Assembly (NCBI GenBank): GCA_037576195.1
Contig: CM075102.1
Coordinates: 33,786,745 to 33,850,744, forward strand
DNA from: Phytoseiulus persimilis
Lineage: Eukaryota; Arthropoda; Arachnida; Mesostigmata; Phytoseiidae
DNA: 64,000 nucleotides
Direction: 5' to 3'
In this document: positions 1 through 56,100 of the stretch, one piece after another
How positions within the stretch are numbered: position 1 is the first letter of the stretch
Layout: each line of letters opens with the position of its first letter
Notes under the pieces: generated by a model
What the model saw: the letters and a program-made list of their open reading frames with translations, nothing else
Told to the model about the DNA's origin: nothing
The model's database searches: none
Program-made: the position numbers and the translations under genes

Positions 1-62
1 CGCAGGAACATATCTATCTTGGCTGTCTATCACGGAATCCGGATCGTAATCGGGAACATCAG

Positions 63-3000
63 ATGTCCCAGCGATCGCTTCAGTCACTTTCCCGCTCGGT
101 CAAAGTTAAGATCGGAACAACCTCAATGAGGATGAGTCTCACGAAGGATTCGACATATTCTTCCACAAGGAGTCTGTTCGGTGAATCTACAAACTCGCGG
201 AAGTCTTGCTACGAAATTCTATTCACTCCTTGCAACACGAGCTTCTCCATGAAAATTTTAGGGTCCAAAACCGCGATGAAAGAAGAGCACAACCGTCAAA
301 TGTCACTCGACTACTTTGTGATTCACCCATGCAGCTTGTTCAAGTGAGTGTTTCACCAGCTTTCTCCCCCCAGCTGGTATCAGTGTAGTTGAGAGGACGA
401 GTCTCCAGAAGTTTTGAGATTCACGAACAAAGAGTCTTTTCTGTAACGGTTTGTGCGCCCCTTCGAGGTTCATTTGGAATATCATCATCGTTTTCACACT
501 TCTCCTGAATCTGATCGTGATTCCAATCGAGTTGGCATTTTTCTACGGAGGACATACTGTTTTTTGGATCGGTTTCAATTCATCTTCGTCGGTGATTTTC
601 GCCTTCGATATCTTTGTGAACTTCTTGTCAGGTTGGTTTCCTAAAAAGCTAGCCGGTGCAGTGCTATCATGTTTCCGGAGTGCAATCATTAGAAAATCGC
701 TTGTTCGTTCGAATGAACTTCAGGAATTGTGATCAGGGATCGCATTCGGCTCGACCGTGGATTCGTTGGGATGAGGTATCTGAGGACCTGGTTCGCGATC
801 GATTTACTAGGAACCATCCCGTTCGATCTGCTCCTGAGCCCCTGCGACGTCAGTCGGAATGACGGCGTATCTCCTGGGAGCTGTGCCGTTGTGCGGATTC
901 TCGGTTGCTTCAAACTATTCAGGATCATCTGTATGGGCAAGCAAATCGGTGAATGGCAGTCGCTTTACGTGAGTATCCTGGATGGTCAGACTAGCAGGCA
1001 CGTTCCCTCCTGAAATTCGTTGTGCGAAAACTCGGTTTGGGGTTTCGATCGAATCAGTTTTCGGAGCAAACCTTGGCTAGCGCTCAGAGACTGGACATTC
1101 CATCCATGCTTTCGTTGACACCGGAGCAGAGTTGGGCATGATCATAATCAATATATGATTATCCAAATAATCGTATGCCGATTAGAATCATTAATCATGG
1201 TTATAATCAAGTTCTGATCAGTAAACATAATGAAAGTCAAGAATCTGGTTTCTGAGGGTGAGTCTGACCATACTTTTCAGAGTCTTAGGAGGTGATTCCG
1301 AGATCTATCTGACCATACATTCTGGAATTTAAGCAAGTGTTTCCGAGATCGATCTGACCATAGTTTCTCATATGGTCAGTGAAAGTACAATAGCGTTACC
1401 GGAATCACGTCTCTGGACTCCGGTCCCCGACAAACCTCGTAAGCGTGTCATCATTCCACCGGGTTCTTGACTATACCAGAAATTTTTATAATCATGAAAA
1501 CAGTTATGAATGTGACTTGATTATGATTGATAAACATAACTTGACTATTATTCATGATCAAGTTCTCATAATCATGAGGTAACGTAAGGTATCATAATCA
1601 CGATTATGATTCTGCCCAACTCTGCGCCGTACCCCTCCGTGGCGCAGGTGAATATATCCGCGGCAATCCTATTCTCCCAAAGAGATCGATAAGCCCAGCT
1701 CGATTACAGATGAAATCAACACATCGGGTCTATATGAAAATCGTCAACGTTATTCTGTCGATTCTGCTGATGTGCCACTTCAATGGCTGTCTCCTATTCT
1801 TCGTTTCAATGATCCAAGGCTTTCCCGAAACAAGCTGGGTCGTTGTCACCGAAATAAAAGTAAAGTTCCGACAAGTTTCTGTGGGATAGTCGAACAGTCT
1901 CAGGGGTCCGCGGTACTGGTCGCAAAACCGTGTGAACATTGTCCCGAGCGGGATCGCCCGCGTATCGCACTGCCCTATCCACTCCTAGCACCACGAGTTT
2001 GAACTTATGTACTTTCTATGTTTCCTGTTTCAGGGTGCTCCCTGGCACGAGCAATACGTGTGGTCGCTTTTCAGCGCGTGGTCTATCATGGTCGCCATTT
2101 CGTTCGTGAAAGCCGAAGTTCAAACGATGGACGAAGTCCTGACTTGTTTCTTCGTACTGGCTTCGGGTGCGATTGGCTATGGAGTTCTCCTAGCCAATGG
2201 AACGGCCTTAGTCCAAACGCTGGACTACTCCAGGAATGCTCATGAGCAAACGGTCTGGAACTTGGAGCCCAGTGCAGTCTGATTAAGTGGAGACACTCGA
2301 TAGGAAATTTCCGAGAGAATATCGAAAGTATCTTCGAGCTTTCTCCGATTCCAGATGTCTGAGGTGCGCCAATTCATACAATACAAACGCCTACCTCGAG
2401 CTTTGGCCCATCGCATTTGTGATTATTTCGAAAACAGATACAAGGGACTGTATTTCGATGGCGGCAAGATCATGACGGAAATGTCCGACGTTCTTCGAGA
2501 CAAACTCCTCCAGTTCGAATGCAAGTCGCTGATCAGAAACGTGACATTCCTGCGAGACGCTGACCCATTCTTCGTGGGTGAGTTCGTTGACTGATCACCG
2601 GTAGGAAAATCCGGGTAGAATATTGCGTCATGCCTGTTCGGTGATCGCGCACTGCTAATTATACCGCTAACGGCATTATTATGTATGTATGTATCATTAT
2701 TATGTCTGTATTATGTTGGATTTATGTTTTCCCAGCGGACATCGTGAAGCGCCTTCGAAGCGAGTTCTTCCAGCCTGGCGATGAAATTCTCTCGGTCGGG
2801 AACCTGGGTTCTAAGATGTACTTTCTAGAGACCGGCAGCGTTGACGTGGTCCTGGCGAACGGATGTCAGGTGGCCACACTCCAGGACGGAGCTTACTTCG
2901 GAGGTGAGCGTCGGGCAATCTACTCTCGACCATACCCCGGGATTCCTGTTTCGTGATATCCGCGAACCTGAGAATGAATTAATTTGTCGAGAAAGACGCC

Positions 3001-3251
3001 TCTCAGTGAACACAATGATTCCAGAGATGTGTCTTCTCCTCCGCGAATCGAGGAGCGCCTCTGTTATCGCCAAATCGTACTGTACGCTGTACTCCTTGAG
3101 TCGCGATGATTTTGAGGACGTGCTGCAAACGTATCCCAACGTGAGAGAAGACATGGAGAAAGAAGTTCTGAGTCGTCAACACGTGAACGAGTCTCATAGC
3201 AGGAATAACAGCGAGGTGTCTCTTGAAGACACCGTCATGGTCCACTTATGA
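63..3251 (+). CDS. HCN/CNG-like cyclic-nucleotide-gated channel with altered pore
   Basis: Eight exons fit HCN channels in order and phase: 63-343, 468-631, 724-968, 1710-1859, 2034-2252, 2355-2577, 2736-2903, 3025-3251, totalling 558 residues plus stop. Visible parts are the pre-S1 HCN motif with VIHPCS (about residue 85), S1 (about 95-119), S2 (126-148), S3 (166-186), S4 (203-222), S5 (238-258), pore loop (285-309), S6 (314-341), C-linker, and a cyclic-nucleotide-binding domain (about 428-530) with the phosphate-cassette YFGE and Arg493 of SRSAS. Oddities: the position of CIGYG reads AISFV (301-305), and S4 has only four basic residues. The tail after the CNBD is short. The frame stays open to the left edge, so the true start may lie upstream of the ATG at 63 or the first exon may be partial. 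The exon 5 donor (GTCTGG) is weak but gives exactly the HCN spacing. An HCN paralogue is the best reading; ion selectivity cannot be inferred. Confidence 0.87.
1127..1624. repeat. MITE-like inverted-repeat element in channel intron 3
   Basis: The block starts CAGAGTTGGGCA and ends with its reverse complement; both ends continue into ATCATAATCA, giving an imperfect terminal inverted repeat of about 24 bp. The interior is AT-rich and full of ATAATCATG words. The CAGAG tip and possible degraded 8-bp flanks (CACCGGAG left, CGCCGTAC right, 5 of 8 matching) suggest a hAT-type non-autonomous element. It has no coding capacity. The hAT assignment is inference. Confidence 0.65.
1264..1380. repeat. 45-bp tandem repeat inside the MITE-like element
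   Basis: The word CTGACCATA recurs at 1264, 1309 and 1354, an exact 45-bp period, with a shared TTCCGAGAT word late in the first two units. The third copy is cut short. This gives about two and a half diverged copies inside the inverted-repeat element. Confidence 0.6.
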
Positions 3252-7812: not shown

Positions 7813-8553
7813 TTATTCAAGCTGATAAACTCGCTCAGGTGTTCTTGGGTCCCGTTTTCTATAGGGGAAACCCCGTCGGAAACTGAGTCGACAAGCTAGA
7901 GTGCTGGCTGATGGAAAAATTCCCACATTCTCTTCTAGGTTATAGATCCGCATAGATGCGGCAGATATGGGGAGAGTCCTCCTAACAGGTCGGAGCATGC
8001 ACAATCGATCCACTGGTTCGAATTTGGACGACGTTTCGCAGCGACACATGTATCTGGACTTGTTTCCAGCGGGTTTCATCTCATCAGTTGAAATCTCCAG
8101 AAGTCGAGCAAACGTCGAGATCCGGAGAGCCATGAGAGACTCTACTGTGATAATCCATGAGGCTGGCCTTGTTTGGATTGAGAACCGCATCGTAGCTATC
8201 TTATTGTGAGGAAAGAAATGGACTCTCCTCGGGATCGCATCATCAGGAAGGAATATCCCCGAAAGAATCGTGTTCGCGATTCTCGATGCCGGGGACTGAT
8301 GCGGCCGCCGAGACCTATCGTGCGGCGGAGCAGTGTACAGGTCGTCCTCCGTACAGGCAGATTTCGAGCCCTTGAGCTGATGACCTAGTTTACGGCCCAG
8401 GGAGAAAACTCGGAATCGTGAGACCCGCCTCTCTTCGAGTAAATGGAGAACATGAATGGGAAACATGAGACCTGCAAGAGGATGAACCTGGACCTGGGAG
8501 CCGACTCGGGTGCTTGGTATGGCAATAAAGTGGTCGAGGAGCTTCCCTCCCAT
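7813..8553 (-). CDS. Unrecognised 246-codon ORF, doubtful
   Basis: This is one of the longest uninterrupted frames outside the recognised genes. Its product is basic, has no clear signal peptide, membrane segment or repeat, and matches no family I know. A frame this long is uncommon but not excluded by chance in 64 kb of roughly half-GC DNA read in six frames. No splice partners were seen. Confidence 0.17.
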   Translation of the reverse strand: MGGKLLDHFIAIPSTRVGSQVQVHPLAGLMFPIHVLHLLEERRVSRFRVFSLGRKLGHQLKGSKSACTEDDLYTAPPHDRSRRPHQSPASRIANTILSGIFLPDDAIPRRVHFFPHNKIATMRFSIQTRPASWIITVESLMALRISTFARLLEISTDEMKPAGNKSRYMCRCETSSKFEPVDRLCMLRPVRRTLPISAASMRIYNLEENVGIFPSASTLACRLSFRRGFPYRKRDPRTPERVYQLE

Positions 8554-11500
8554 TGATTGTTCTCCATCGCCCGCGGATACTCGATTGACTTCATAGAATC
8601 GAGTTTTATTGCCCTCCCCACGAGTGCCCCTGATCTTTGGAGCTCGTAGTTCCGTCTCATAGCTGCTATTTCGACCCTCATCATTTAACGCAGATAGTAG
8701 ACTTGTCTTCCTTCCAAGCGTGTTTCCGTGGTTGCCAAATCCATACTTTTTTAAGTTCCATTTAGTCCTTTGATGCTCTTCTGACTTCCGGTGCGGAGCG
8801 CCGATGAGCTTGATGTTAGGCAGCAGCTGAGGTCGGCTTCAAGAGAATATGCATTATTTCCATCGGCTCTTCGGAGTAAAAGAATCCACGCCATGGTACC
8901 CCGTGAGTATTTTCAGAAGGCCATCGGAAGGGACTCTTCTCGATGGGAGCACTCTCTCTTCGAATTTCGGTCTTTGGTAACTTGTGAATGTCAGATCACG
9001 TGATCTCCCACGCATTCCAGTTTCGGATATGACCGCACAACAAGAACGGTTCGCCCTGTTCCGTGGAAGAGGGTTTCATTGCAACACTTCCTCCCACCGC
9101 ATTCCATCTCGAGGAATGCCTGCTTTGACTCAGCTTCTTCCACAAATGTTGTGAGATCGTTGAACAAGCGAGCCTGACACAGGTGATGGAGCATTTCTCG
9201 TCGTTTTCTCTTGCGTGAAAACAGTAGGTTTGAAAAGTAGCAAGCAACAATGATAAGGTTTGGGGGGACAGGCGGCCAGTCGGCACAGTCGAACTATTCG
9301 ATACATGATCCTCGAACGCCGCTTCTCAATCGGAACTCAACAAAATCGCTTGAGTGCTTGCGGCACTTGGCGTCCCGTCGCGGTTCCTTGGTTGTGGAAT
9401 CGTAAATGATCACCGTATCCAGTAGAACGCACCGCTCTGGAGTTGCGCGACCCTATCTGATCAGAGATTTCGTTCCGGGGCGGAAACATCCCTAAAAGAG
9501 CGGAACATCTGAGTGAAACTTGAGGAAAAACGAATTCTGGAGGAAGAATAGGTTGCAAGAACGGTTAAACCACTATATCGTCGAATCAGAAACTTCGTCT
9601 GTCGAGCTGAACTATCTACAGCCCCCGCAGGCTCCGGCCCCGTTTTCGGTCGAGAGTTTGCGTATTCTGGGTATTGGTGTTGACTATCTGCGATAACTTG
9701 TTGGCAAAAACGACATGAACTTCACGGGGGATCTTTTCATCAAGCTGTTGAAGTTCTCATCGTCTGGCACTAGAAGCCGTCTTATAATGTGAAAGCTCCC
9801 ACCCGGTTCCTGATTTGATTCGGCAACAGTATAAACTTGGGAAAACTGTGAAGATTGATGAAGCTTCAAACGGTTCTCGAGAAAAAGTTCTGAGTCCAGA
9901 ATCGGATTTCCACAACGCATATTCCGAGAACCTTGAAACCAATGAAGATTCCGAGCATTCTGAACTTGGCAAAATTCGGCCAAGATCTTCAAATAAGTAA
10001 TATTCGTTCGACGACATTCATTCAGGCTCCTGTTATTTTCCAACACCTTGTTGTCCCCTCGAATCTTGTTTCTCCGGTAGTAGGAGCTTCACGCTGTGAT
10101 ACAGCTTTGAAACAGCGAATCTTCCTTCGCTTCAATCAAGATGAAGCTCTCTCAAGCGACTGAATGAATTCAAACAAGAAAGTCCGCTCTTAGGGAATCC
10201 ACATGTGGCTCATGATTGAAGTGATCAACAGAGCTGAGTTCCCCGATCACTGAAATATTTTTCGACGGCTCAGGAAAGCACGCTAGCAGTTCTCCCCAGA
10301 TTTATTTGGAATTCAATTTATTGTGCTTCATTCGCAAGGATGTCTTGCAAGGAAACTTTCCGTCTACTTCCAGCCTGCCAGACAGCCACTCCAAGGAATT
10401 ACTTCGAAGTTTCATAAATGATTGATGCCTCTGAAGATTTCTCTCTCACATGGATACGATATCAACACTTATTCCCCAGTCACATGACTCTCTTGCGAGA
10501 ATGGTTTTCCAAGTATGGCTCGACCCTCGATCGTTTGGCGATGCTCGGTCCATCGCGTGGACTATGAAAAATTCAACCTCAGACGTCGTTCAGACGTGTA
10601 TTGGGGCGCATGACCGCCCCCGAATGGAGCCCCTGTGATTCCCCCAGGATCGTGATTGGAAATTCCTCGAAGTATCGTCATAATCTGCTCTCGGAATGCA
10701 AGTAACGAGGCTCGGCATATTGCGGTTCCATAGATGGGAATCAGAAAGTCGGCGGAGGAGTAATTGCGGATTCTCCACTCGCAAATACATCCTCGAGTGT
10801 TTTCCATCTCGAGAGGGTTTCATCCGTTCTGCTCCAAGAATGGTTTGTTGGAAGGTCTAGAAGTTGCATCTGCCATGCGAACTAGGGCTATCATGCTTCT
10901 TCGAAAAATTAAAAAGCTGATCAATTTCACTCTCAGTCGATGTTGTTGATTCAGGTGCATCTTCGCAAGTTCGTTATATTCCGAGAATATCGTTTAATTG
11001 GTCGTACTGCTGTCCCTGGACGGCTGTCTGGATGGCGTATCATAATGGAACCAGTTTGGCCTTGTCTTCCAGTTGACACGGTATTTGACGTGTTCCAAGT
11101 AGGAGAACCACTATTCTTCAACTTGGCGGTGTAGATACAATTTCGGACTCAAATGAACGAGCTTGGGTGGAACTCTCGCAGTCTGTTCGATCTCGGGGCT
11201 TGTATCGTCACTCGTATAATGTTCTTCTGAAGTTCCTCGATCGGGAACAACGAACTTGAAGACGCCGCTCAACGCGCGAGGAGACCGTCGCGCTGATCGG
11301 CTCCGTCTGCCATCGATTGATTCCCGGTCCTCCAGGCTACTTTTGTCAGCTGAACCTGCTTTGAGATTGGCGGACTGGCGGGGAGTTTTTCAATCTGCGT
11401 CCCATAGCCCACATTATTTTTAGATGCGACTTCAACTCGGTTCTCCAACCGGGAGAAACGAGATATTACTTCCCGCATGTAACGGAAAATTCTAGTGATT

Positions 11501-12209: not shown

Positions 12210-15200
12210 ATGATGGGTCGCTGCAGCTCGTGGATTATCCTCTATCTGTGTTTCTTCGGTGAGCCCCAACACCCTCGGATATCCCTACTGCGTTTTCCCA
12301 ATGAAACGAGCCCCTCGGCGTCTCCCAAGTTCTGAAATTCAGCGCTTTTCCCGAGTGCCAATGCGCTTCTCCATCTTAGCCCACCTGCGTAGAACCTCGG
12401 GACTCGAACTCTGTGCCCTCAGAGCCCTCTTAGAAACCGTGATCTGGAATCCATCGAATCAGAATGTCTCTCGCTAACATTTCAGAAGAGTAGTCTTGAT
12501 TTCATTTTTCGGAGACTGCTAGTTCAAGCTCCCGCAAGTCTCTCCCCGTCGAGTCCGATCGATGCATGCTTCCGAATTTCTCTGTGCGGCCTTCCACCCT
12601 AACGTTCGCGTCTCAAACATTTTAGGACCAGAGATTCAGATCAAGCCTGTTGAGAGTCAAATTCTTAAGCTCCCACAACTACCGCGTCTCCGATGGCCGA
12701 GCTTCAACCGACCCAAAAAGGATATGCCTGTTGAATTGAAGCCCTCGTCAACGAACCAAGATCCCACTGTTACACACATCTACGCCGGAGGACCGCCTCA
12801 CAGCCACGGTCCTCAAGGAGCCCAAATGCTCCCCCCTCCCCCGATGCCCCACGCACCTCCCATGTACCCGCACTTAGGTTATGCCAATCCTTTCGCACCG
12901 TTCGCGAGGCCACCGAATCCTTTCGTGTTCCCCAATATCGTAGCTCACCAACCGCCTTCTCCATCATCCACGAGCTACTTTTCCTCTCCCTCCTCGTCGT
13001 CGAGCATGCGCAAAACGCGTCGACGACGACCAGTATACGATAACGACTCTCTGGAAGACGCTTCAACCGAGGATGAGCCCGTCTACATCAAAGTGAAGTC
13101 GCGAAAGAGGAGGCCCATCGTCATCGATGAAGAGGAGTTCCTGGGTCGCGGCCAAGAGCATGGATCCAGCGAAGAGTCCGCAGACCCACCGAAGATCTCC
13201 TACAAGTCGAGGACGAAACCTCAGGTCGTTTACCTGGATTCATCGAGAGAGTACCCGTCCGCCAACGAAAGGCGGATGTTGCTCAAAAATGAAGAGATCG
13301 TCCAGGACGCGCCCTCGTACCATTCGCCGTCGATAAGCGCACTGCACGCGTCCATCGGATCGGGAGGCTATCAGATCAATTCGCGGCACCCCTCAAGAAG
13401 CTCCGCACAACCCGAACTGGTTTTCGTCAACAATTTGGAGAATTCCGCCGGACCTGGATACAGCTTCGAAGGAGCTTCGAGTCAGAAATTTCGCTCCAAC
13501 CAAGGAGAATACCCGGGCCACTTCGTTCTTCAGAACATCCGCCCAGTAGATCACCAAGAAGTAAGACTTTTAGTTGCTGAAAAGGCCTTATTCTCGCGAC
13601 CTAGATTCTATCAAACTAATTTCCCATTGAATTCTCCTGGTCTTCCATCCACAGTCCAACGGGAAACCCTCATATCTTTCGGAAAGCAGCACGAACCCGC
13701 CGACGATTCGTATCGTGCTGAACTCAATGAACCAAGAGCACAAACTTCAAGGTCCTCCCACAACCCCGAACCCCACTCAGCACAGCCAGGCTCAGATTCC
13801 CTCACCTCAGCCGCAATCTTCGATGAATCATTTCCAAATGTTTGAACCGACGCAAACCGTTTTCCACGACAAGGGTTTCCAGTTCGGAGCCAGCTCTCAC
13901 AGCCCATGGTCACCGCCCCCAGCATCGCCGTCGCATCAGCACACTCAGAAAGTTTCTGAATCAGTCAAAGTGGCTCGAAGATCTTTTCCCACCGGAAACT
14001 TCCCGCTAGCGGGGCCATCGCCGCTCCCACCCCTGATGGAGCCGTTCATTGCTGGCCCACCTCTACCGCCGCCTCCACCTCCGACAAGCGCATCGACGAC
14101 TGTCTTCATGGAGAAAACGACTCGCAAGAGGAGTCCGGCTCTCCAGGACCAGGCTTCCTACGCTCAGAAAAACCAGCAGATCATCGAGTTCTCGTGTGCC
14201 GGTAGACGATCAGGATACTACGCCAACCGACAGTACAAGTGTCAGGTGAGAATGAAGGGGATCGTTGCTGATGTTTAGCTCGATTGAGTTTGATCCGTTG
14301 TTGCCACGGTGGTCGAACGGTCTTCGTCAGCCGGATGGCCCCAACCCAGTTCATCTTATTCCCATTCAGCGCGTGTCCGTGATCTTTTCCTAGTCGGCTC
14401 CTCGGCATTGATTTTAGAGAAAAAAAAATCACCGCCTGTGTCGGTTGGCGGGGTGGCTACCGTGGAATCAGAACGCAGAGCTTTAATCACTCAGAGCCGC
14501 AACAGATTCGCTTTGTTTTTTTGCGTGGTATCGACCAAGAAAAAAGAGACAACGAGACAGAAGGAGCGGAACGAACGCCGTCGAACTTAACCGTGCTGGA
14601 AGCTCAGCGTCGATTAAAGCGGCACAGCCATCAGGAGGAAATCTTTGACTTTCACTTGTTCAGGTGCAGCGGAGCACATGGCCCCACGAAAAGATCCGAA
14701 TGCGTGATTAACATCTTCTCCTCTGCTGCTGCGCGTCTCGCGCGCCGGAAAATGATATTGTTTGTTTTTGCTGTCGCCGCTGATCCAGATCTGCTAAGGG
14801 TGACTTCCTCCCCCAGATCTATCACCAGTGTTCCAAGAGGACTTTGACGCAGACTTTCATGTGCCCCAACGGAACGGCTTTCAATGAGAAACAAAAACTC
14901 TGCGAGCGTGCGCAAAAAGTCGCCTGTGTGCCGGAAGACAATCGGCAGAAAAATCGGCCGATGCTCGCCACCACAGAAGTGCCCCAGGTAGGTTCCAGCA
15001 GGAATCCAGTATTTCCTATCGAGCTCTCTCGGGAAGCTCAGCCCCCTGACTGAAAGATCAATCTCATCCGTTCGCGGTCGCTCCTTCCAGATCTCCTCTA
15101 GGATGGACGAAGGAAGCGCTGAGCTCGTCGACACGAAGATCAGCACCCCACCCACAAGCCCGGCAACGGCAGTGACCACCACACCGGCCCCAGTTCAGGC

Positions 15201-22876: not shown

Positions 22877-24879
22877 GCACGTTATCGACTACGATTGTCT
22901 TTCTCTGTTCAGCTCTGTGAGATTCTGGCACCCATATTCTTGAGAGCTTTCTCACGCTTCACGTGGTGACAGCTAGAATGCGATCATGTTTCCGAATTTT
23001 TCCACAACATGAGAAAAACATCGTAACCATGAGTTCTACGACTCCGCGTTCCAGCCGCTAGTTAGCCCTCGCTCTATTCTATGATTCCTCTTTCGAAGAA
23101 CGCTGTTCTGATTGAGAGAAAGAAAGAAGAAATGGAATCCAACGCCTGCGAGTCACGGGGACGAATTTTTAGTCTCTCTCCCTTCTCATCCCGTAACTTA
23201 CTCTTCTAGGGCTTGCGGAGCGTGTCTGATGACAGGGTTCGTTCACAGCATCTACGGCGAAAAATCGCTAGCCCACTGCATGGTTGGCATCCATGGTTCA
23301 TGGGTGAGCGCTTCGACCGATCGATGGAAAACGAGCTGCTGTTTTGATCCGTTGTCACATTTCTTCGCTGCTTCCCTTGTGTTCTCTCGGACTCGGTCAA
23401 TCTTCTGACTCGACGTCATCCGGTCTGATCTAGCTCAGAGATTCAACTCATACCCTTCTGATTTCCAGCTCATCGTCAGGATACTAAGTTTCCTCATCTC
23501 GTGCTTCTGCTGTCAGCATCACGATGAAAACTCCGACGAGGTTGAAGACTGAAGAAGTTCTCAGAGGGGCTCCGATGAGTTCAGGGAAAATTGTGGCGAG
23601 GTGTTTGTTACAAATGTATATTTCAGCGGAAACTCTTCGAATTCAAATAAAACCCAATGAGGGCGTATTTGTAGCTCGCTTCCTCCGGCGTCACGTCGGC
23701 GTCGGGCGTCACCTCACAAGTCGTCACGTTCTACTCCAATGTTGTGTCCTAATAGCTCGATGCTCTTTTTGCACGAAACGCTCTTCACGATTCCTGCACC
23801 CTCCGTTTTCCTGGAACTCGTTTTGCACCCTGGGCTGCGGAATACTTGCCCACAGACCTGTGGGCGCGATGGTACCCTTCTCATGGTTAGTATGAAGTTG
23901 GGGCGCCCAAGAGACTGCTTCCGTGGGTCGAGCAAACTCTAGCCAGAGCACAATCAGAAGCGCGAACGACAAAGTTTGCATGAATCGACTGGGAGTCCAC
24001 TGAACAACGGCGTTTCGATCACGACTTCAGGAGACTCGGATCGGGTACCGAAACGAGACCGTTTCCAGCTTTAGGTCCGGACATTGGCATTGGAGCGAGG
24101 GAGAGCATTATGAGTCTGAAGCTTGAGAAGAAAATCCAACTCCGTCACGGAGCCACGGAGCCCGCCAGCGAAGCTTCTCTGCGCGCTTCTATGCCAGCCC
24201 CGGTATCAGCGGCTGTTTCAAAAACAAATAATCGACACCAGCACAGACTGGGAGTGACAAAGAAGGAACAGCGGCAGTGTGTCCCGTTGTATCATGTGAT
24301 GTTGAATCCAAACTGATAAGGTTTGACAGCACACCTGTTCATTCCCGATCGACACGTTCCTCCAATCCGGAGAAGAAGGTGAGCAAGTTGAAGGTTCCTG
24401 GACGCTGCTGTCAGAGCCAAGTTCGAATCTGTCGGTTTGGATCTCAATCATACTCCTTATCTTTTGAGGAGTGATCCCGTGGGGACCCTCCCCTCCCGCG
24501 CGTCCGTTGGCTTCTCTCCTCCCCAGGGGCTCCGGGCATGAAAGCAGAGTTATGATACGGGAGACGTGGGCACGATGGTTTCTGATAACTGAGTCATCTC
24601 TTCCTGTCCTGATCGCGTATTCGAACGACCGTCGAGGAAAGCACTGTGTGCAGTTCAATGACTTCTTGGAGCGTCTAGAAATTTTCAATTCCCAGTGATC
24701 AAGCTTTTTGTGTGAGATCAAACCTCGAGTATTCGCATGGTCAGGGGGCGTGGTCGGTTTCCCCGTGTGAATCGAAATCCATTTAATATAAGTTTCGATC
24801 TCATGGTGTTCGCAGGAATCAATCGGAGAAGTCCCCATAGACTCTGCTCTCGAAGCTCATCGCGGCTCCTTTGTTACAG
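22877..24879. other. Interval between MFS gene and WASHC5
   Basis: About 2 kb. It contains the putative minus-strand secreted ORF at 23.72-23.98 kb, an AATAAA on the + strand at 23646-23651 that may be too far to serve the transporter, and a 206-codon minus-strand ORF (24218-24838) without recognisable features. The WASHC5 start codon directly follows a good splice acceptor (TTGTTACAG), so a 5' leader intron of that gene probably ends here. Confidence 0.5.
23724..23981 (-). CDS. Putative small secreted protein, 85 residues
   Basis: The ORF begins with a convincing signal peptide (core LSFALLIVLWLEFA, then RPTEA before the likely cleavage) and continues with a hydrophilic segment containing two cysteine-poor, charged stretches. 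No domain or dibasic peptide pattern is recognised. The minus-strand orientation puts it antiparallel to both neighbours. It could be a complete small protein or the first exon of a larger one. A chance hydrophobic start is possible. Confidence 0.33.
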   Translation of the reverse strand: MQTLSFALLIVLWLEFARPTEAVSWAPQLHTNHEKGTIAPTGLWASIPQPRVQNEFQENGGCRNREERFVQKEHRAIRTQHWSRT

Positions 24880-27800
24880 ATGGATTTCCTCGCTGAAAAT
24901 AACTCTTGCGGGCAGACACTGCTTCAGATTGTCTCCCAGGGAAATACTATTTTGGCCGAGCTTACGAGACTCTCTTCAATGATTCCTCCGCAGCTGAGTC
25001 ATGACCGATATTCGGAAATCGTTCTGGACTTCAGCTACTTCAAGACGATCGAGGCTTTCGAGAAAAAACTTGACAACGACACCCGACTCCAAGACATGGA
25101 CGAAGTTTTTAAGGAAACCCATCTTAACCTGTTGTCGAAGTTTTACCTTGTCTTCGAGTGTGTCCATCAATTCACGGTGGAGCTGAACCATTTTCTCGCA
25201 GAACTCGAAGAAGGTGTCTTCATCCAACAGTCTCTTGAGACAGTGTTGAACAATGTCGACGGAAAGCAGCTCCTGGCAGAAGCTCTGTACATTTGCGGAA
25301 TAATGCTCCTGTATATCGACGAGAAATTCGAAGGATCTTTACGAGAGAAGATTCTGGTTCTCTACTACCGGTATTCTGCGCAACGGTCGAATCTGGTGTC
25401 GAATGTCGACGACGTTTGCACACTCTTCCGATCAACGGGTTACGTGGCTAAGAAAACTCGACCTCCCAACTATCCCGAAGAGTATTTCAAGCGAGTCGGC
25501 GTGAACTCGGATTTCGTCACGATACTGCTTGGTCGTCTGAGATCGGACGATATCTACAATCAGGTCCCCCTGTATCCACAGCCGGTTCATCGCAGTGTAG
25601 CGCTCGCCAACCAGGCTGCCCTGCTCTACGTTGCTCTTTTTTTTGACGCCCGAGTCCTCCACCAGGAAACCGCTGTGATGCGCGAAGTCGTCGACAAATA
25701 TTTCGCTGACAACTGGGTGATCGCGACGTACATGGGCAACGTTGTCAACCTCATCGACGCCTGGGAGCCTTACCGAGCGGCCCGCTCGGCCCTCCAGAAC
25801 GTGCAGGATCCGAAAACCGTACAAACGCGATGCGAGGAAATGCACGAAAAAGTAGCAAAGCTCATACCTCAGGTGGACAACGTTCTCAAAGAAGGCGTTC
25901 TCACCGAAAACATGGTGCTTGAGAAGCTGCAAAAACTTCTCTCATTCGCTCGAGACTGTAACGTCACGCTGCGGTGGTTGATGCTGCACACGGCCAAGAC
26001 GCCAGAATTGTTTTCCAAAAGAGCCAAGCAGATGCGAGACATTGTTCTGCAAAAGCACAACCCGTTGGCTCTCTTCAGTTTGTTACTTCACACTGCCGAA
26101 TTCGAGCACAAATTCAAGGAAGTCCTCCAGCAGCTTCTCAGGCATAGAGAAGGAAAGTGGAATTATCTGAAGAAAGAAGGCTCTGAGCGCTTGCGCGAGC
26201 TCTCGGAGGCGTACTCCGGAGAGCGGCCGTTGTATCGAGTCGAAAAGATCGAACGACTCCAGAAGTGGTTCGAAGATATATCGAAACAGGTGGACTCGCT
26301 GTCGCAGGAAGATCCGGTTGCTGTTGGGCGGCGGATCGTGCAGCTCATCAACGCACTGGAACAAGTTCAAGGATTCCATCAAATCGAGGGTTGGTTTCCG
26401 AGCTGCGAGACTTGTCGAAACTGTCTGATATCGCTGTGATGTCCTTTCAGAACCCATTGACTCATATTTGATCCTCACCTCTTACTCTCTACTCAGGGCA
26501 TGCTCATATTCGACAATGCGTCCAGGAGAGCCGGCAGCAGCTGCACAAAATGTTAAGATTGCTATCCATAAAGGATGAGCTGCTGGCCCATCTCGACGTG
26601 ATCGCCGATGTGTCCTATGCTTGGCTGCTGGTCGATGCTTACACGGCGCAGATGCAAGGAGGTATCAAACAAAATCCAAAAATGGTGGTCAAACTCCGTG
26701 CAACGTTCTTAAAACTTGCGTCCGCCCTGGATCTCCCTTTGCTCCGAATCATTCAAGCGTCTTCGAAAGGTACGAAATTTCGATATCTTCAATCGTCGAC
26801 CCCTGACCCGAGACGGCGCCTTCGTCCCATTGGGAATTTTCGGGGGTGTAGAATGAATCAGCTCCGAAAACTCCCATGATGAGCACTCTCTTAGCAGATC
26901 CTGTAACAAATGTCCGGCATGACAACAACCACCAGGTTCACTGCCGTTGAATCAGCTCCTACAAATTTAATAACGTCGAGCATGTATTGACGCTGTGACT
27001 TACGCCTTGCAGACATGGAAGCAGTTTCCGCCTTCTACTCAAATGAGCTCATCGGCTACATCCGACGAGTTCTCCACATCATTCCAGAAACCATGTTCAC
27101 CCTCCTCGCGAGAATCATCCATCTGCAAACCAACTGCATCAAACAGCTGCCAACTCGCTTGATGAAAGATCAGCTGAAAGAATACGCACAGCTGGACGAG
27201 CGCGCGGAAGTTGCCAAGCTCACTCACGATATCAGTGTTTTTACTGACGGAGTGCTAGAAATGAAGACGACACTCGTCGGTATCGTCGAGATCGATCCGC
27301 GTCAACTCCTCGAGGACGGCATTCGGAAGGAGCTCGTCAACCAGCTCAGTCTTTCTTTGCACAACGGACTCATATTTGCGGCGAAGCCGAAACAGGGTGA
27401 AATGCTAGAGAAGCTGACCAAACTCACTCAAGTGGTCAGTGGTTACCATAGATCTTTCGAGTACGTCCAAGACTACATTGGCATCAGAGGACTGAAAATG
27501 TTCCAGGAAGAGTTTTCTCGGATCGTCAACTACAATGTTGAACAAGAGTGCAATGCGTATTTAAGGCAACAAATCCACGATTGGGAGTCGGAATACCAAT
27601 CGAAGAAAGTTCCCATTCCTAAGTATGCGCCTCTGGACACATCGGCAGTGAACTTCATCGGGAGACTGTTGAACGAGCTGCTGCGATTGACCGACCCCAC
27701 TCTGACTGTATACTTGGATTCATTGTGCACGTGGTATGATCGTGTCCTGCATACGAAGGTCTTGATTTTGTCGGACTTCGCAACCATGCTCAAAGGCTTG

Positions 27801-28661
27801 GGAGCGGTTGGGATGGTTGGCTTGGACCGTTTGCTGTCTTTTCGCATTCGGAAAAAGCTCCAGGATCTCTCTAACTCCTTGAACAGAACCCTTGATGACC
27901 AATATTGGTCTCAGGCCCTGGCTGCCCTGGCCCAGAGCTTGAAGAGAACGACCGTGGACGGATATGTGAAACTGGTAACACCGTTCGTTGCAAAAGTCTC
28001 CAAGCTGTACCCTAGCCTGGCCCAAACTCTGATGACGATCGGTCAGATGACGCTTCTCCGCCGTCACATCAGTCACGAACTGAAGAAGAACGCCAAATTC
28101 AACGGGAAAAACCTATCAGCCGCCCTCAGAGCACTTAACGATGCTACGATGCTGCATATGCCGGAAAGAACTTCCCAAGCCGAGAACGAATATCTTGAGC
28201 GTTTGGCTACCCATCTGAAAATGTGCGGTATTTATGATCCGCTGAAGCAAATTTATATCCAAAACTCGTCTTCTCAAAATCTACCGTTGTTCCTTGCGCT
28301 CTCAATGGTATCGAGCATGCCGAAGTTCACGTATTCACGTTCTGTGGGCTGTTTGGTGGCCAAGAGCAAACAAACCGTCGATTGCGTGCCATTCACCTAC
28401 GGAGTGTTCGTGTTTCTGTCGCAGTTCCACATGGACTACACTGAAGATTTCATCGAAAACCTCTGTACATACATAAAGTCAGCTTCATTCCCAGTGGCTC
28501 AGTCTGGAAGGGTCGACGCAGACCTCGCAAATCTACTAACGTTCTTGGACTTTGCCAGCTTGGAACTCGAATGCGTCGACAGGGAAACACTCGTTAGAAA
28601 CCTGCCGGAATTCATACTCACCCAGTATAAAGATTTGTTGACACTGGGAGCCGAGAAATGA
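24880..28661 (+). CDS. WASHC5: WASH complex subunit 5 (strumpellin)
   Basis: Three exons (24880-26389, 26497-26769, 27013-28661) give 1143 residues, close to the 1159 of human strumpellin. Similarity runs end to end: the start MDFLAENN, then IIFDFSYFK-like, YNQVPLYPQP, WVIATYMGNVVNLIDAWEPY, DCNVTLRWLMLHTA, LRATFLKLASALDLPLLRI, RRVLHIIPETMF, QLLEDGIRKELV and RSFEYVQDYI blocks. The family (Pfam Strumpellin) is a helical scaffold of the WASH complex, which activates Arp2/3 on endosomes for cargo sorting. I chose ATG 24880 because homology begins there; the bases before it form a splice acceptor, so the 5' UTR is probably spliced. All exon phases agree (1, 1). No defect was seen. Confidence 0.97.
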
Positions 28662-30788: not shown

Positions 30789-32844
30789 ATGGCGTTCGTC
30801 AAAGTTGTGAAGAACAAGGCCTACTTCAAAAGATTCCAGGTGAGTAATGAGTTCTATCGGCGGTGGTAGCTGCCGGCCACGTGTGGCCGCATGGCACCGC
30901 TCCTTGCGATTCTTCGTGGAGGAATGTCTCAGACATCCCAAACCTGTGGCGTGGATCCGTTTGAAAAAGTGTCGGGCGCGTCGTACGTTAGGCGCCCGCC
31001 GTCCATGTCGCGTTGCACTCGCAGAATTTGTGTGAAGCTACCCATGCGAGGCGTTAGAGGGAAAGCTCCAGCTGTTCTTCCCAGTGAATGCCTCTCAGGA
31101 AATCTCCTGCTGGAGTGAGAGATCTGGAACTGAACCGAGCTTCCTCTGCAGGTCAAGTTCAAGAGGAGGCGTGAGGGTAAGACCGACTACTACGCCCGGA
31201 AGCGTTTGGTCGTCCAAGCGAAGAACAAGTACAACACCCCCAAGTACCGCATGATCGTTCGCATAACGAACCGCGACATCATCACCCAGATTGCCTACGC
31301 TCGTTTGGAAGGTTCGTAACGCTGTACCAACTCTTTCCTTCAGAATTTTCTCCGACGTTCATATATCCCCTGAGTTGGCGAAACCAGTTTCGAATTCACT
31401 CCCATCGGATCCGCGACCCATAGCAGTGTTTGTGTTGAAACTTTGCAACGTTTGTCGTAGGTGACGTGATCATCTGCGCGGCCTACTCTTCTGAACTTCC
31501 CCGGTATGGAATCAAGCTCGGTCTCACCAACTATGCCGCTGCTTACTGCACTGGTCTACTGCTGGCCCGTCGTCTGCTCCAGAAGTTCAAGCTCGACTCC
31601 ATCTACAAGGGTCTTGAGGAGGCCACTGGCGAAGACTACGAGGTCGAAGATGTTGATGACAAGCCCGGAGCATTCCGTTGCTACCTCGATGTTGGTTTGG
31701 CGAGAACCTCGACTGGTGAGTGGTCTGCCTTAGAGCATGCTCATGAATCTTTCGTTCACCGTCGACTCGTATGGACGCTTTTTGTGAACGAGTAGCTTTG
31801 AGGACTGGGGGAGCGTATCGTGAATGTCGTTCAGCGCCCCCTCCCTCCCTGCAATCGCCTTGTAACATAGCAGAGATTCCGGTGATCAGCCGTTTCCCCG
31901 CTACTGCCAAGGCGAATAGAAAGGTCTTCTTTGCAACAGGTAGTGGGGCCATTCATGGGTCATTGCCTTACTTGAGCGGACGACAATTCGCGAGGCACAC
32001 CTCCCAGCGAAATTCTGTCGAACCAGCTCCTTTATATCAGTTACTGGTCAAATACCAGTGTCTTGTGAGAGGAGCTCATATCAATGTTCTTTCGTTTCAT
32101 CCTAAGCAACCGCTGACTGGCGTGCTAGGCTCACCGAATTGATACACTCGGAACCACCGAATGATTATATCACACCTCTAGATTCTCACCTTGATTAACC
32201 CCTTGCTGGCATCGAAATCTCGTTTCTCTCATGGAATGCGATGTGGCGCTAACGAGGGCATAAAAAAACTCTTCGAAATCTGTGCCCAGCCCTATGGCTT
32301 CGCACACTCCATAGTCGAGAACACTCAAATGAATTTTACGATCCCGACACTCCCATCTAGATGTTCGTCTCATCTCGATATCTCTCTCGTCTCACGTCTC
32401 CCCTGTCTGTCCCATACAGGTGCTCGTATCTTCGGGGCCATGAAGGGAGCCGTCGATGGAGGGCTCAACATCCCCCACTCCAACAAGCGTTTCCCCGGAT
32501 ACGATCCCGAGAGCAAGGAATTCAACGCTGAAACCCACAAGCAGCACATCTACGGCCAGCACATCGCTGAGTACATGCGTTCGCTGCTCGATGAGAACGA
32601 GGAAGCCTACAAGACCCAGTTTGCTCGCTACATCAAGGCCGGTGTTTCCGCTGACGACATCGAAGGTCTCTACAAGAAGGCTCATCAGGCGATTCGCAAG
32701 GACCCTGTGCACAAGCCCAAGCCGAAGAAGACCGTCGAGAAGAAGATTTGGACCGCGCAGCCCATGACTCGTGCCCAGAGGAAGAGCCGTGTGGCACACA
32801 AGAAGAAGGCCTACATCAAGAAGCTCGAAGGGGGCGATGCCTGA
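30789..32844 (+). CDS. RpL5: 60S ribosomal protein L5 (uL18)
   Basis: Four coding exons (30789-30839, 31152-31311, 31461-31715, 32420-32844) give 296 residues, against 297 in human. Identity is high along the whole length: [92 protein letters not shown] and a lysine-rich tail. The protein binds 5S rRNA in the large subunit and, with L11, forms the 5S RNP. Phases are 0, 1, 1. I looked for C/D-box snoRNA motifs in the introns, because vertebrate RPL5 hosts one, and saw none. Expression is probably high, with codons favouring C or G at third positions. Confidence 0.98.
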
Positions 32845-53166: not shown

Positions 53167-56100
53167 GTGAGTCACTAACGTCGAAACGTACAGCACGTGC
53201 CGTACACGTGCACGGGTAAACATTGCATGACTTTCGATCCCACTTCCTCGACCACAGCGATGAAAATAGAGGACTTAGGCGTTTCGTATGAAATATCGTC
53301 AAGTCCAGGAATCATCTGCCATTGTTTTTGCGCCGTGTTGATTTTCTTGCGCGCAATCCCGTGGAGCCCGTGAACGATGTGGAAGTACGATAGTTGTTGT
53401 AAAACCTGCTTTCCTAAGTCAGGGAGAACTCGCGAAGCAATTAGGAATTTTAATGATATAGCAGAAGAATTCAAAACGGGAGTATGCGAGGAGCGAGCAC
53501 TCTGCCAAGGGCGAGGGCCGCGGCGAGGAATTCGATGACGCACGACGACGCAGGAGAACAAAACACTCGACAAAGAAGCGCGCAGCCGGTTCATGACTGA
53601 AGGGTTGGGAAACCCTGGACGGGAAAGAAGATCAGCTTCCCTGATTCAAGACGGGCGGGAGATTTTCCTCTCGGGAAGAGTCGCGATCAAGGTCAACCAG
53701 TCAGATGCTATGAGAGGCTTCATTTTGTGGCGTACCCCAAGAGACGTTCCCTTTATTTCTGTCTGCATGGTTTTATGAAAAGGATGGAACTGCTATCGAG
53801 AAGAGCTGCGTCGAGGATGAGCTGGAGAATCGAATCGAGATTTTGTCCGGGTCCCGACGAAAGCTCAAAACGACGGATTCATCGAGGGTTTAGCGAGGGA
53901 GATCGCAGCGCGCCTCCAAGCAGAGTGAAAGCGCCTGGGAACGGGTGAGGCCGCAATCCGGAGACGATGATTACGATGCTTTCCGAATGAGGAAGAAAGT
54001 TGATGGCCGGGAACTATAATTAAATATAATAGCAAGGCTAAGCTGCTCGGGGCGCTGCGAGTGTAGGGGCGGGTGATCGCAAACTGCTCGAGTTTTTCGG
54101 GGCTAGCGTGTCGAAGTAGGAAGGAATAAAATATCACAATGTTACATTGGCTCAGTCAGACGATCATTTTACGAGGACGACAGTCGAAAAAGCAGCGCAG
54201 ACGGCCTCTTGCCGTTGACCAGTTTGGGAATAGAGAGAATCTGCGCTCGGTCGCTCAGAGTCTGGCTCCGCTACGAACTTTGCAATGCAGATTTGATTTC
54301 GACAAACATCGGCAAGCATTGCCAATTCGAGATCCTCCAGTTTGCTCTGGCAGAGCAGAAGAGGGAAACTTGAGCAACAGCGGAAAGCAGCAGACGAAGA
54401 GGGGAACTCTCCGTGCTTTACAAAGAGCTTCGGATAGCTCAACGGCAGCGCCCAGGAGAATATTTCGCCACAATAATCAGCTCGAGCTCTCCCTTGGAAC
54501 GGCCGAAGATACCACTCTCGCTCTGGAGAGCAGCCAGAAAAGAATCCAAGCCCCCGGCGAACTCGATTAAGGTTTGGATGTTCTGGGAAAATCCTCGAGT
54601 ACAGTGAAAGGAGCATTACATTAAAACTTGGAAACAAAGGAAACGCAATCCGAAAATGGGAGATCAGGAGGAAGCTCACCGCTGTAGTCCTCTCTGAATT
54701 ATCCGGATGCTCGGGTCCGTCGCGAGCGTATCCGAGAGATGAAAGAGCCTTCGGAGCGAATGAATCACGGGAACAATGAGGAATGTTTGCAAGAAATGTG
54801 CAGAAACAATCAAGGAGCGAACGCTCTTCACCAAAATCGTTTCCCTCAGCACGACGTGCACGCGAACGACCCGGCGAACCCGTCGACCGGTTAGTTGGCC
54901 GGCCGTTTGCCCGCTCGTTCGGGCGCCTGCCGACCTCATTTTCTGAAAGCGTTGATTGCGTGGCTAATGCCAGGAGGCGATCTGGTGGCGCTGGGGCGAG
55001 CGTGTAACGAATCCGTTGGAACTTCGAACGGAACTTGGAATCTACGTCGCGACTGTGTTCGAAACCACCGTTCGTTAAAGTCAACCAATTTATTCGCGTT
55101 CCGCCTTAAACGGCGAACGTTTGCCTCCGACCGAGAGGTAACCCGCGGCCCCCGCCGATTGCCTACGCTTCGGGCTCAGCCCGATCGGCTCTGAAGTTTT
55201 CAACGGAGCTCAAACTGATTCCGGATTCGATGTTCCTACGGCGCTTCGTGACAGGGTTTCATTCCGCGCTCCGTAGGCTCGAAGAGAGCGTTCCGTTAAC
55301 GAGAACAAATCGATTTCATCGAGTTTTTTCCCTCATTCGGTCGGGGTTTCCTCCCTGTTCCCGCCCTTCCCTTGACAGTCTGATCCGTGCAATCCCATTT
55401 GTAACAGGCACGGCGTAGATCTCTGTAAATCCACTTTGAAGCTTGACTAGACTGTGCTTTGCAACAACTCCGGTAGCGTTGGCGCGTGCGAGCGTAACAT
55501 AGTACCACGACGCTTCTATACAACGAAACAGTTCAGATTCGAGCGCTTCGAGCTCTGCCAGGGGGATTCGACGCAAACAAAGACTGCTCCGCGCGGAGCT
55601 GCGTAGTCGGAAGAAGCACTGCGACCGTCTTGTCGAGTGCCATCACACCGTGAGCTCCGCGTCTGATGACTGATGAGCGCGGCTCGCGCAGAATGTGGGC
55701 TGTCTCCGCGAGCAGAGAGCGGAAGTAGTGCCGCAGGTCCGCTCCAAGGACTGCACTGAGGAGCGAAATCGTGAAGGGCAGACAGTGCTCCGAACCCACG
55801 GACCGTCTCTTGTAGGAATCGACTCGAGATCCGGGCTGCCGCTGCTGTTGGCGCCGACCGTCCTCCAGGTGGTCCTCGGCGGTGCGCTACCGTTGGACTG
55901 ACGCGTAATTTCGTTCGTCCAAATCTGTAATTAATCGGAGCGATCCGGGAGCGACGATCGAAATGAGGCCAACCAAAGACCAAAGAACGAACTCGACTGA
56001 CTACGAACAGCGGGAGAATAATTTCCTCTCGAGTCCTTCGACCATCGACTTTGCCAATACCGGGCCGCTTGAGGGCCTCCGTCGCAGTTGGCGCCGCGCA

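Follow-up and report, generated by a model that had tools for sequence, protein, structure and literature searches.

An HCN-family channel gene without the GYG selectivity filter in the mite Phytoseiulus persimilis

The window, a 64-kb stretch of the Phytoseiulus persimilis genome, holds most of an HCN-family gene within its first 3.3 kb. Eight + strand exons (3–3251) join without an internal stop to encode a 578-residue protein, followed by a stop codon. Exon 1 (3–343) encodes the N-terminus and the HCN domain (Ion_trans_N; PF08412, E = 2.6e-11), exon 2 (468–631) S1–S2, exon 3 (724–968) the S2–S3 loop, S3 and S4, exon 4 (1710–1859) the S4–S5 linker and S5, exon 5 (2034–2252) the turret, pore helix, filter and S6, exon 6 (2355–2577) the C-linker, exon 7 (2736–2903) the first part of the cyclic-nucleotide-binding domain (CNBD; PF00027, E = 5.9e-19) and exon 8 (3025–3251) the phosphate-binding cassette (GEMCLLLRESRSASV), a short C-helix and the stop. 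All seven introns have AG/GT ends with matching phases, and the frame stays open through the 578 codons. At its 5′ end the gene is either truncated by the edge of the window or uncertain: the reading frame runs open as far back as base 3 and has a Met at codon 21, and residues are numbered here from the first complete codon of the window. In a codon model trained on the strumpellin gene described below, the coding frame is the best of the three + frames in all eight exons; its scores are positive in exons 4–8 and slightly negative in exons 1–3 (−8.4, −2.1 and −4.3), and in exon 2 one reverse frame (+4.9) scores above it. The donors of exon 5 (ACG/GTCTGG) and exon 2 (CAG/GTTGGT) match the usual consensus poorly, in our judgement.

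Intron 3 of this gene contains a 498-base stretch (1127–1624) that looks like a MITE, perhaps, we presume, a hAT-like one. Its ends are an exact inverted CAGAGTTGGGCA and lie in 28-nt arms (1122–1149 and 1602–1629) that are 89% complementary; with one mismatch allowed, these ends have no copies in the window beyond the two, and 5 of 100 shuffles matched as often. Inside the stretch, a 45-base unit starting TCTGACCATA occupies 1263–1366, in two adjacent copies that are 76% alike and the first 14 bases of a third. Further along the window, a gene for strumpellin (WASH complex subunit 5) at 24841–28658 comprises two long open frames matching PF10266 (654.7 and 577.7 bits), and a 3′ exon of the ribosomal protein L5 (uL18) gene lies at 32182–32841; its best matches are ribosome chains 4v6w and 6xu6, which we take to be from Drosophila. 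These neighbours agree with an animal, perhaps arthropod, origin. Three other regions with long open frames have no Pfam match at E 0.1: 7816–8838 (− strand, 341 residues), 54167–55105 (− strand, 313 residues) and 12523–14275 (+ strand, 440 and 215 residues), the last proline-rich by eye.

Sequence comparison places the eight-exon product in the HCN family by descent. The closest solved structure in the PDB is HCN4 (366.6 bits, E = 2e-108), with other HCN chains next. The best non-HCN scores among the best 60 of 167 PDB sequences are 131.7 bits for a CNG channel, 122 for SthK and 103.1 for KCNH2, so that, by bit score and within these 60, the protein is well closer to HCN than to CNG, SthK or KCNH channels. 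The Ion_trans_N domain precedes S1 (43.4 bits against a cut-off of 27), and the C-linker is followed by a CNBD with the phosphate-binding Glu and Arg in place (GEMCLLLRESRSASV vs GEICLLTRGRRTASV). With canonical HCN channels (HCN1 and HCN4) the protein shares the HCN domain, the six-segment layout, the C-linker, the CNBD and the start of the pore exon; unlike them, it lacks GYG, its S4 is eroded and its S3–S4 region is shortened. Pfam matched Ion_trans_N and cNMP_binding in it, whereas Ion_trans (PF00520) was not reached at E 0.1, a domain that the HCN4 control reaches at 6.5e-27. The NCBIfam search returned only partial matches of CNBD type, all under cut-off. Judged by the features tested, namely the filter, S4 and the Ion_trans domain, the protein would fail as a working HCN channel.

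The clearest departure lies in exon 5, an open exon of 73 codons with AG/GT ends (translation GAPWHEQYVWSLFSAWSIMVAISFVKAEVQTMDEVLTCFFVLASGAIGYGVLLANGTALVQTLDYSRNAHEQT). Here AISFV (2094–2108, + strand; residues 321–325) stands in place of CIGYG, and both glycines of the selectivity filter are substituted, G-Y-G having become S-F-V. The register is clear without gaps: setting AISFV on CIGYG of HCN4 scores 94 in BLOSUM62, and the next best register scores −11. The flanks on both sides fit HCN4 well (WHEQY/WGKQY 22, NGTAL/HATAL 14), in contrast to the outer pore, where VKAEV against GRQAP scores −5. The protein thus carries neither the CIGYG of working HCN channels nor the TIGE of CNG channels; a changed filter is also what the zebrafish relative HCNL1 has, as far as the sequence part of that feature goes. 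An earlier note on this DNA had set AISFV (its residues 301–305, correct if the Met at codon 21 is residue 1) on CIGYG, in an open and correctly spliced exon, and had held that the loss of GYG is no alignment slip; the register, flanks and stop-free join bear out each of these points.

A chance-looking GYG triplet does occur in the same exon, at 2175–2183 in S6. Seven residues separate it from ALVQTLD and it pairs with CYA of HCN4, so that its position rules it out as the filter.

One way to reconcile the gene with a conducting channel would be splicing to another, overlooked pore exon that carries GYG. The weak donor at 2253 would fit such splicing. However, a six-frame search of the 64 kb with filters off, using an HCN profile that combined HCN4, HCN1 and the mite protein itself, found only the eight exons, the next hits having E values of 7.1 and 8.4, and no pore exon lies in either of the introns flanking exon 5 (174 and 102 bases). 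The start of the exon also points to the ordinary pore exon: a donor oligonucleotide printed in PMC11263024 has an intron-like end, CCACAG, directly before the codons for N-N-S-W, and exon 5 begins before G-A-P-W. Read from that oligonucleotide, the pore exon seems to share its start and phase with exon 4 of human HCN4. We regard splicing to another pore exon as close to refuted.

Alternatively, the protein might still form its own pore, one with an altered and wider filter (ISFVKAE) that is perhaps non-selective. The pore helix, the filter isoleucine and an aromatic residue at the Tyr position are retained, and so, by alignment, are T394 and Q398 of HCN1, which we take to be gate residues of S6. 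Metazoan CNG channels with a TIGE filter conduct. A survey of CNBD channels lists this TIGE filter for them (PMC7576140), but TIGE retains the first glycine and the mite filter does not; both glycines are lost and the outer pore is unlike that of HCN4. A wider working filter is thus, in our view, very unlikely.

The voltage sensor has changed as well. S4 (CAVVRILGCFKLFRIICMGK; 882–941, + strand; residues 222–241) keeps four basic residues, and the usual spacing, with every third residue basic around a serine, is broken: four of eight basics are left, the outer three are gone and the serine is a glycine. In the best register, R226, K232, R235 and K241 pair with K261, R267, R270 and R276 of HCN1, and R273 falls on Cys238. 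The outer arginines R252, R255 and R258 of HCN1 face Val, Gly and Ala and have no basic partner, the outer half of the segment being without a basic residue. HMMER and MAFFT disagree on where the gap in S4 falls, HMMER setting R226 on R258; ungapped sliding favours R226 on K261 (37 against 13), and the pairing with R252, R255 and R258 upstream of VVR is less sure. Under any placing, the stretch between R213, in the S3–S4 loop, and R226 contains no basic residue. Counted on the alignment, S3–S4 is shorter by five residues, and contains Pro-Gly, and the S4–S5 linker is shorter by two. Of the acids in S2 and S3, D189 and D225 of HCN1 are retained and the outer S2 acid, D183, is a Ser.

A changed filter together with a changed S4 brings to mind HCNL1 of zebrafish sperm, in which, according to three reports, filter changes leave the central pore dead and the sensor passes protons (PMC10651576, PMC13095418, PMC11700363). 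HCNL1 resembles the mite protein in its HCN architecture, its changed filter and an S4 altered at an outer arginine. Its third S4 arginine is described as a Met, and replacing this Met by Arg abolishes the proton current (PMC10651576, PMC13095418). By analogy, the mite protein could conduct through its voltage-sensor domains, along a gating-pore path opened by the missing outer S4 arginines. The lack of basics in outer S4, with Val, Gly and Ala opposite the three outer arginines of HCN1, and the retained D189 and D225 are consistent with this, whereas the shortened S3–S4 with its Pro-Gly, the further S4 charge replaced by Cys and the Ser at D183 argue against it. The characteristic Met is also absent: the mite protein has Ala at the third arginine in the best register, and three outer arginines are gone. 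Further, Varroa and Ixodes are reported to have two Hv channels each (PMC10377628), so that the mite may already own true proton channels. Conduction through the voltage sensors is the main rival of the reading favoured below, but we consider it unlikely. The more specific proposal that voltage-sensor conductors have arisen from HCN channels a second time, independently, in an invertebrate and in the form of a cAMP-tuned gating-pore channel, perhaps for protons, is more speculative still.

The two proteins differ in their cAMP-binding ends as well. None of the best 60 of 167 PDB matches is named HCNL1, and we set HCNL1 apart by its description. In PMC10651576 it is described as lacking the cAMP-binding Arg, which is present in the mite protein (codon at 3051–3053, + strand). 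By two tested sequence features, then, the protein is not HCNL1-like: its third S4 arginine is not replaced by Met, and its cAMP Arg is present.

Conservation along the protein is uneven. Identity to HCN4 is lowest in the filter and outer pore (2 of 13 residues, 15%) and in S3–S4 and S4 (7 of 36, 19%), and highest in the CNBD (51 of 102, 50%), with 29 of 83 residues identical in the C-linker. The Pfam score of the CNBD, 68.3 bits, compares with 66.9 in HCN4 itself. The Arg codon at 3051–3053 aligns with R549 of HCN1, presumably equivalent to R591 of HCN2, the arginine that we take to contact the cAMP phosphate. Past the position of R632, the C-helix departs from that of HCN2; R635, I636 and K638 of HCN2 are not kept. 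Because of this divergence after R632, the response to cAMP may be weak. When the CNBD alone was used as query against the PDB, proteins with several CNBDs scored highest (127.4 to 107.8 bits, as whole-sequence scores), and HCN4 was the best single-domain match (97.9 bits).

Such losses could reflect decay of the whole gene, and two simulations speak to this. First, HCN4 was mutated without selection, by substitutions and without indels, in 2,000 runs, each ending once no more than 2 of the 13 filter residues remained. By then a median of 21 stops had accumulated (minimum 6), and 0 of the 2,000 runs was stop-free; this end point may overstate the changes needed, since the outer pore of HCN4 may not be that of the true ancestor. 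A second end point, independent of the outer pore, in which GYG and four S4 arginines had all changed, gave a median of 24 stops (minimum 5) and again no stop-free run. Second, the mite gene itself was mutated at random to its first stop in 2,000 runs while seven key codons were followed, each mutation in a key codon being assumed to alter the residue with 75% chance. Reaching the first stop took 19 substitutions at the median, or 0.011 per site, and 86 at the 95th percentile; at least three of the seven key codons had been altered by then in 16 of 2,000 runs and at least five in 0 of 2,000. The absence of stop-free loss from these runs argues that the filter and S4 were not altered by neutral decay of the whole gene, and the results support the view that the gene bears no sign of a long-decayed pseudogene.

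A more recent silencing is a separate matter: a diverged, once-working paralogue might have just lost its function, with stops yet to gather. The second simulation indicates how long an unconstrained gene waits for its first stop, a median of 19 substitutions, and given this wait recent silencing cannot be read from one sequence. The two weak donors, of exons 2 and 5, would also suit it. Against this, the changes in the filter and S4 are too numerous, no run having reached five of seven key changes before a stop; they most likely arose with the rest of the gene under constraint. We therefore consider recent silencing decidedly unlikely.

The locus thus holds an HCN-family gene whose product has lost the filter, carries an eroded S4 and retains the C-linker and the residues of the cAMP pocket. 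The earlier note had read it as an otherwise intact channel, not obviously a pseudogene, whose filter loss suggests a non-potassium, non-conducting or regulatory subunit. The 578-codon open frame, with no stop-free run among the 2,000 simulated filter losses, agrees that it is no obvious pseudogene, and the filter loss, the lack of long decay and the lack of another pore exon in the window all stand. The description as otherwise intact does not, given the missing outer S4 arginines, the Cys at R273, the shortened S3–S4 and S4–S5 linker and the Ion_trans domain that is not reached. A non-conducting or regulatory subunit is still the most likely reading of the sequence.

More fully, we favour, with a probability of roughly 50%, a diverged HCN paralogue that acts as a non-conducting, cAMP-binding and probably regulatory subunit; we infer that it stands beside a canonical HCN gene. 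With the filter glycines gone, the subunit is expected not to conduct, and assembly and cAMP binding would still be possible, judging by the S6 residues, C-linker and cAMP pocket that are retained; together these make a silent regulatory subunit the best reading. The protein would still fold and reach the membrane, its central pore no longer conducting and normal voltage sensing probably gone. It would tetramerise through S5–S6 and the C-linker and still bind cAMP. Joining ordinary HCN subunits, such a silent cAMP-binding subunit would lower or retune their current, an effect that we liken to that of engineered GYG-to-AYA subunits, the change reported to have been used to make a dominant-negative HCN4 (PMC11263024). 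The engineered HCN4 is likewise an HCN subunit without filter glycines, but it is man-made and, as described, altered at its two glycines only, so that it keeps the S4 of HCN4.

Relatives of the pore exon were also sought in microbial and viral contigs. In bacterial and archaeal contigs, 74 stretches fit the search pattern and one passed, with 53% identity over query residues 35–66; we ascribe it to chance, its frame being flanked by stops and running antisense to a 366-residue archaeal frame. Three stretches in viral contigs fit the pattern, with no relative among them. Among animal channels, ciHCNc of Ciona appears to be another HCN duplicate in which the pore has changed: PMC3487815 implies that it has diverged and that its sequence at the narrowest part of the pore is unlike that of vertebrate HCNs. 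Our literature search, with subscription journals mostly outside its scope, found no report of a non-GYG HCN channel in arthropods. Zebrafish HCNL1 is already a known case of an HCN relative whose central pore does not work, and the variant described here seems to be new.

In the 2020 survey of eukaryotic CNBD channels, strong deviations of the filter are rare and concern single channels and not clades, metazoan CNG channels excepted (PMC7576140). Since filter deviations are so rarely clade-wide, the existence of a conserved clade without GYG would be of interest. If the mite gene is transcribed and conserved, it would represent another HCN lineage that gave up the filter while retaining the cAMP sensor, and it would serve as a natural experiment on the role of HCN subunits that lack a pore, whether as silent partners or as conductors through the voltage sensor.
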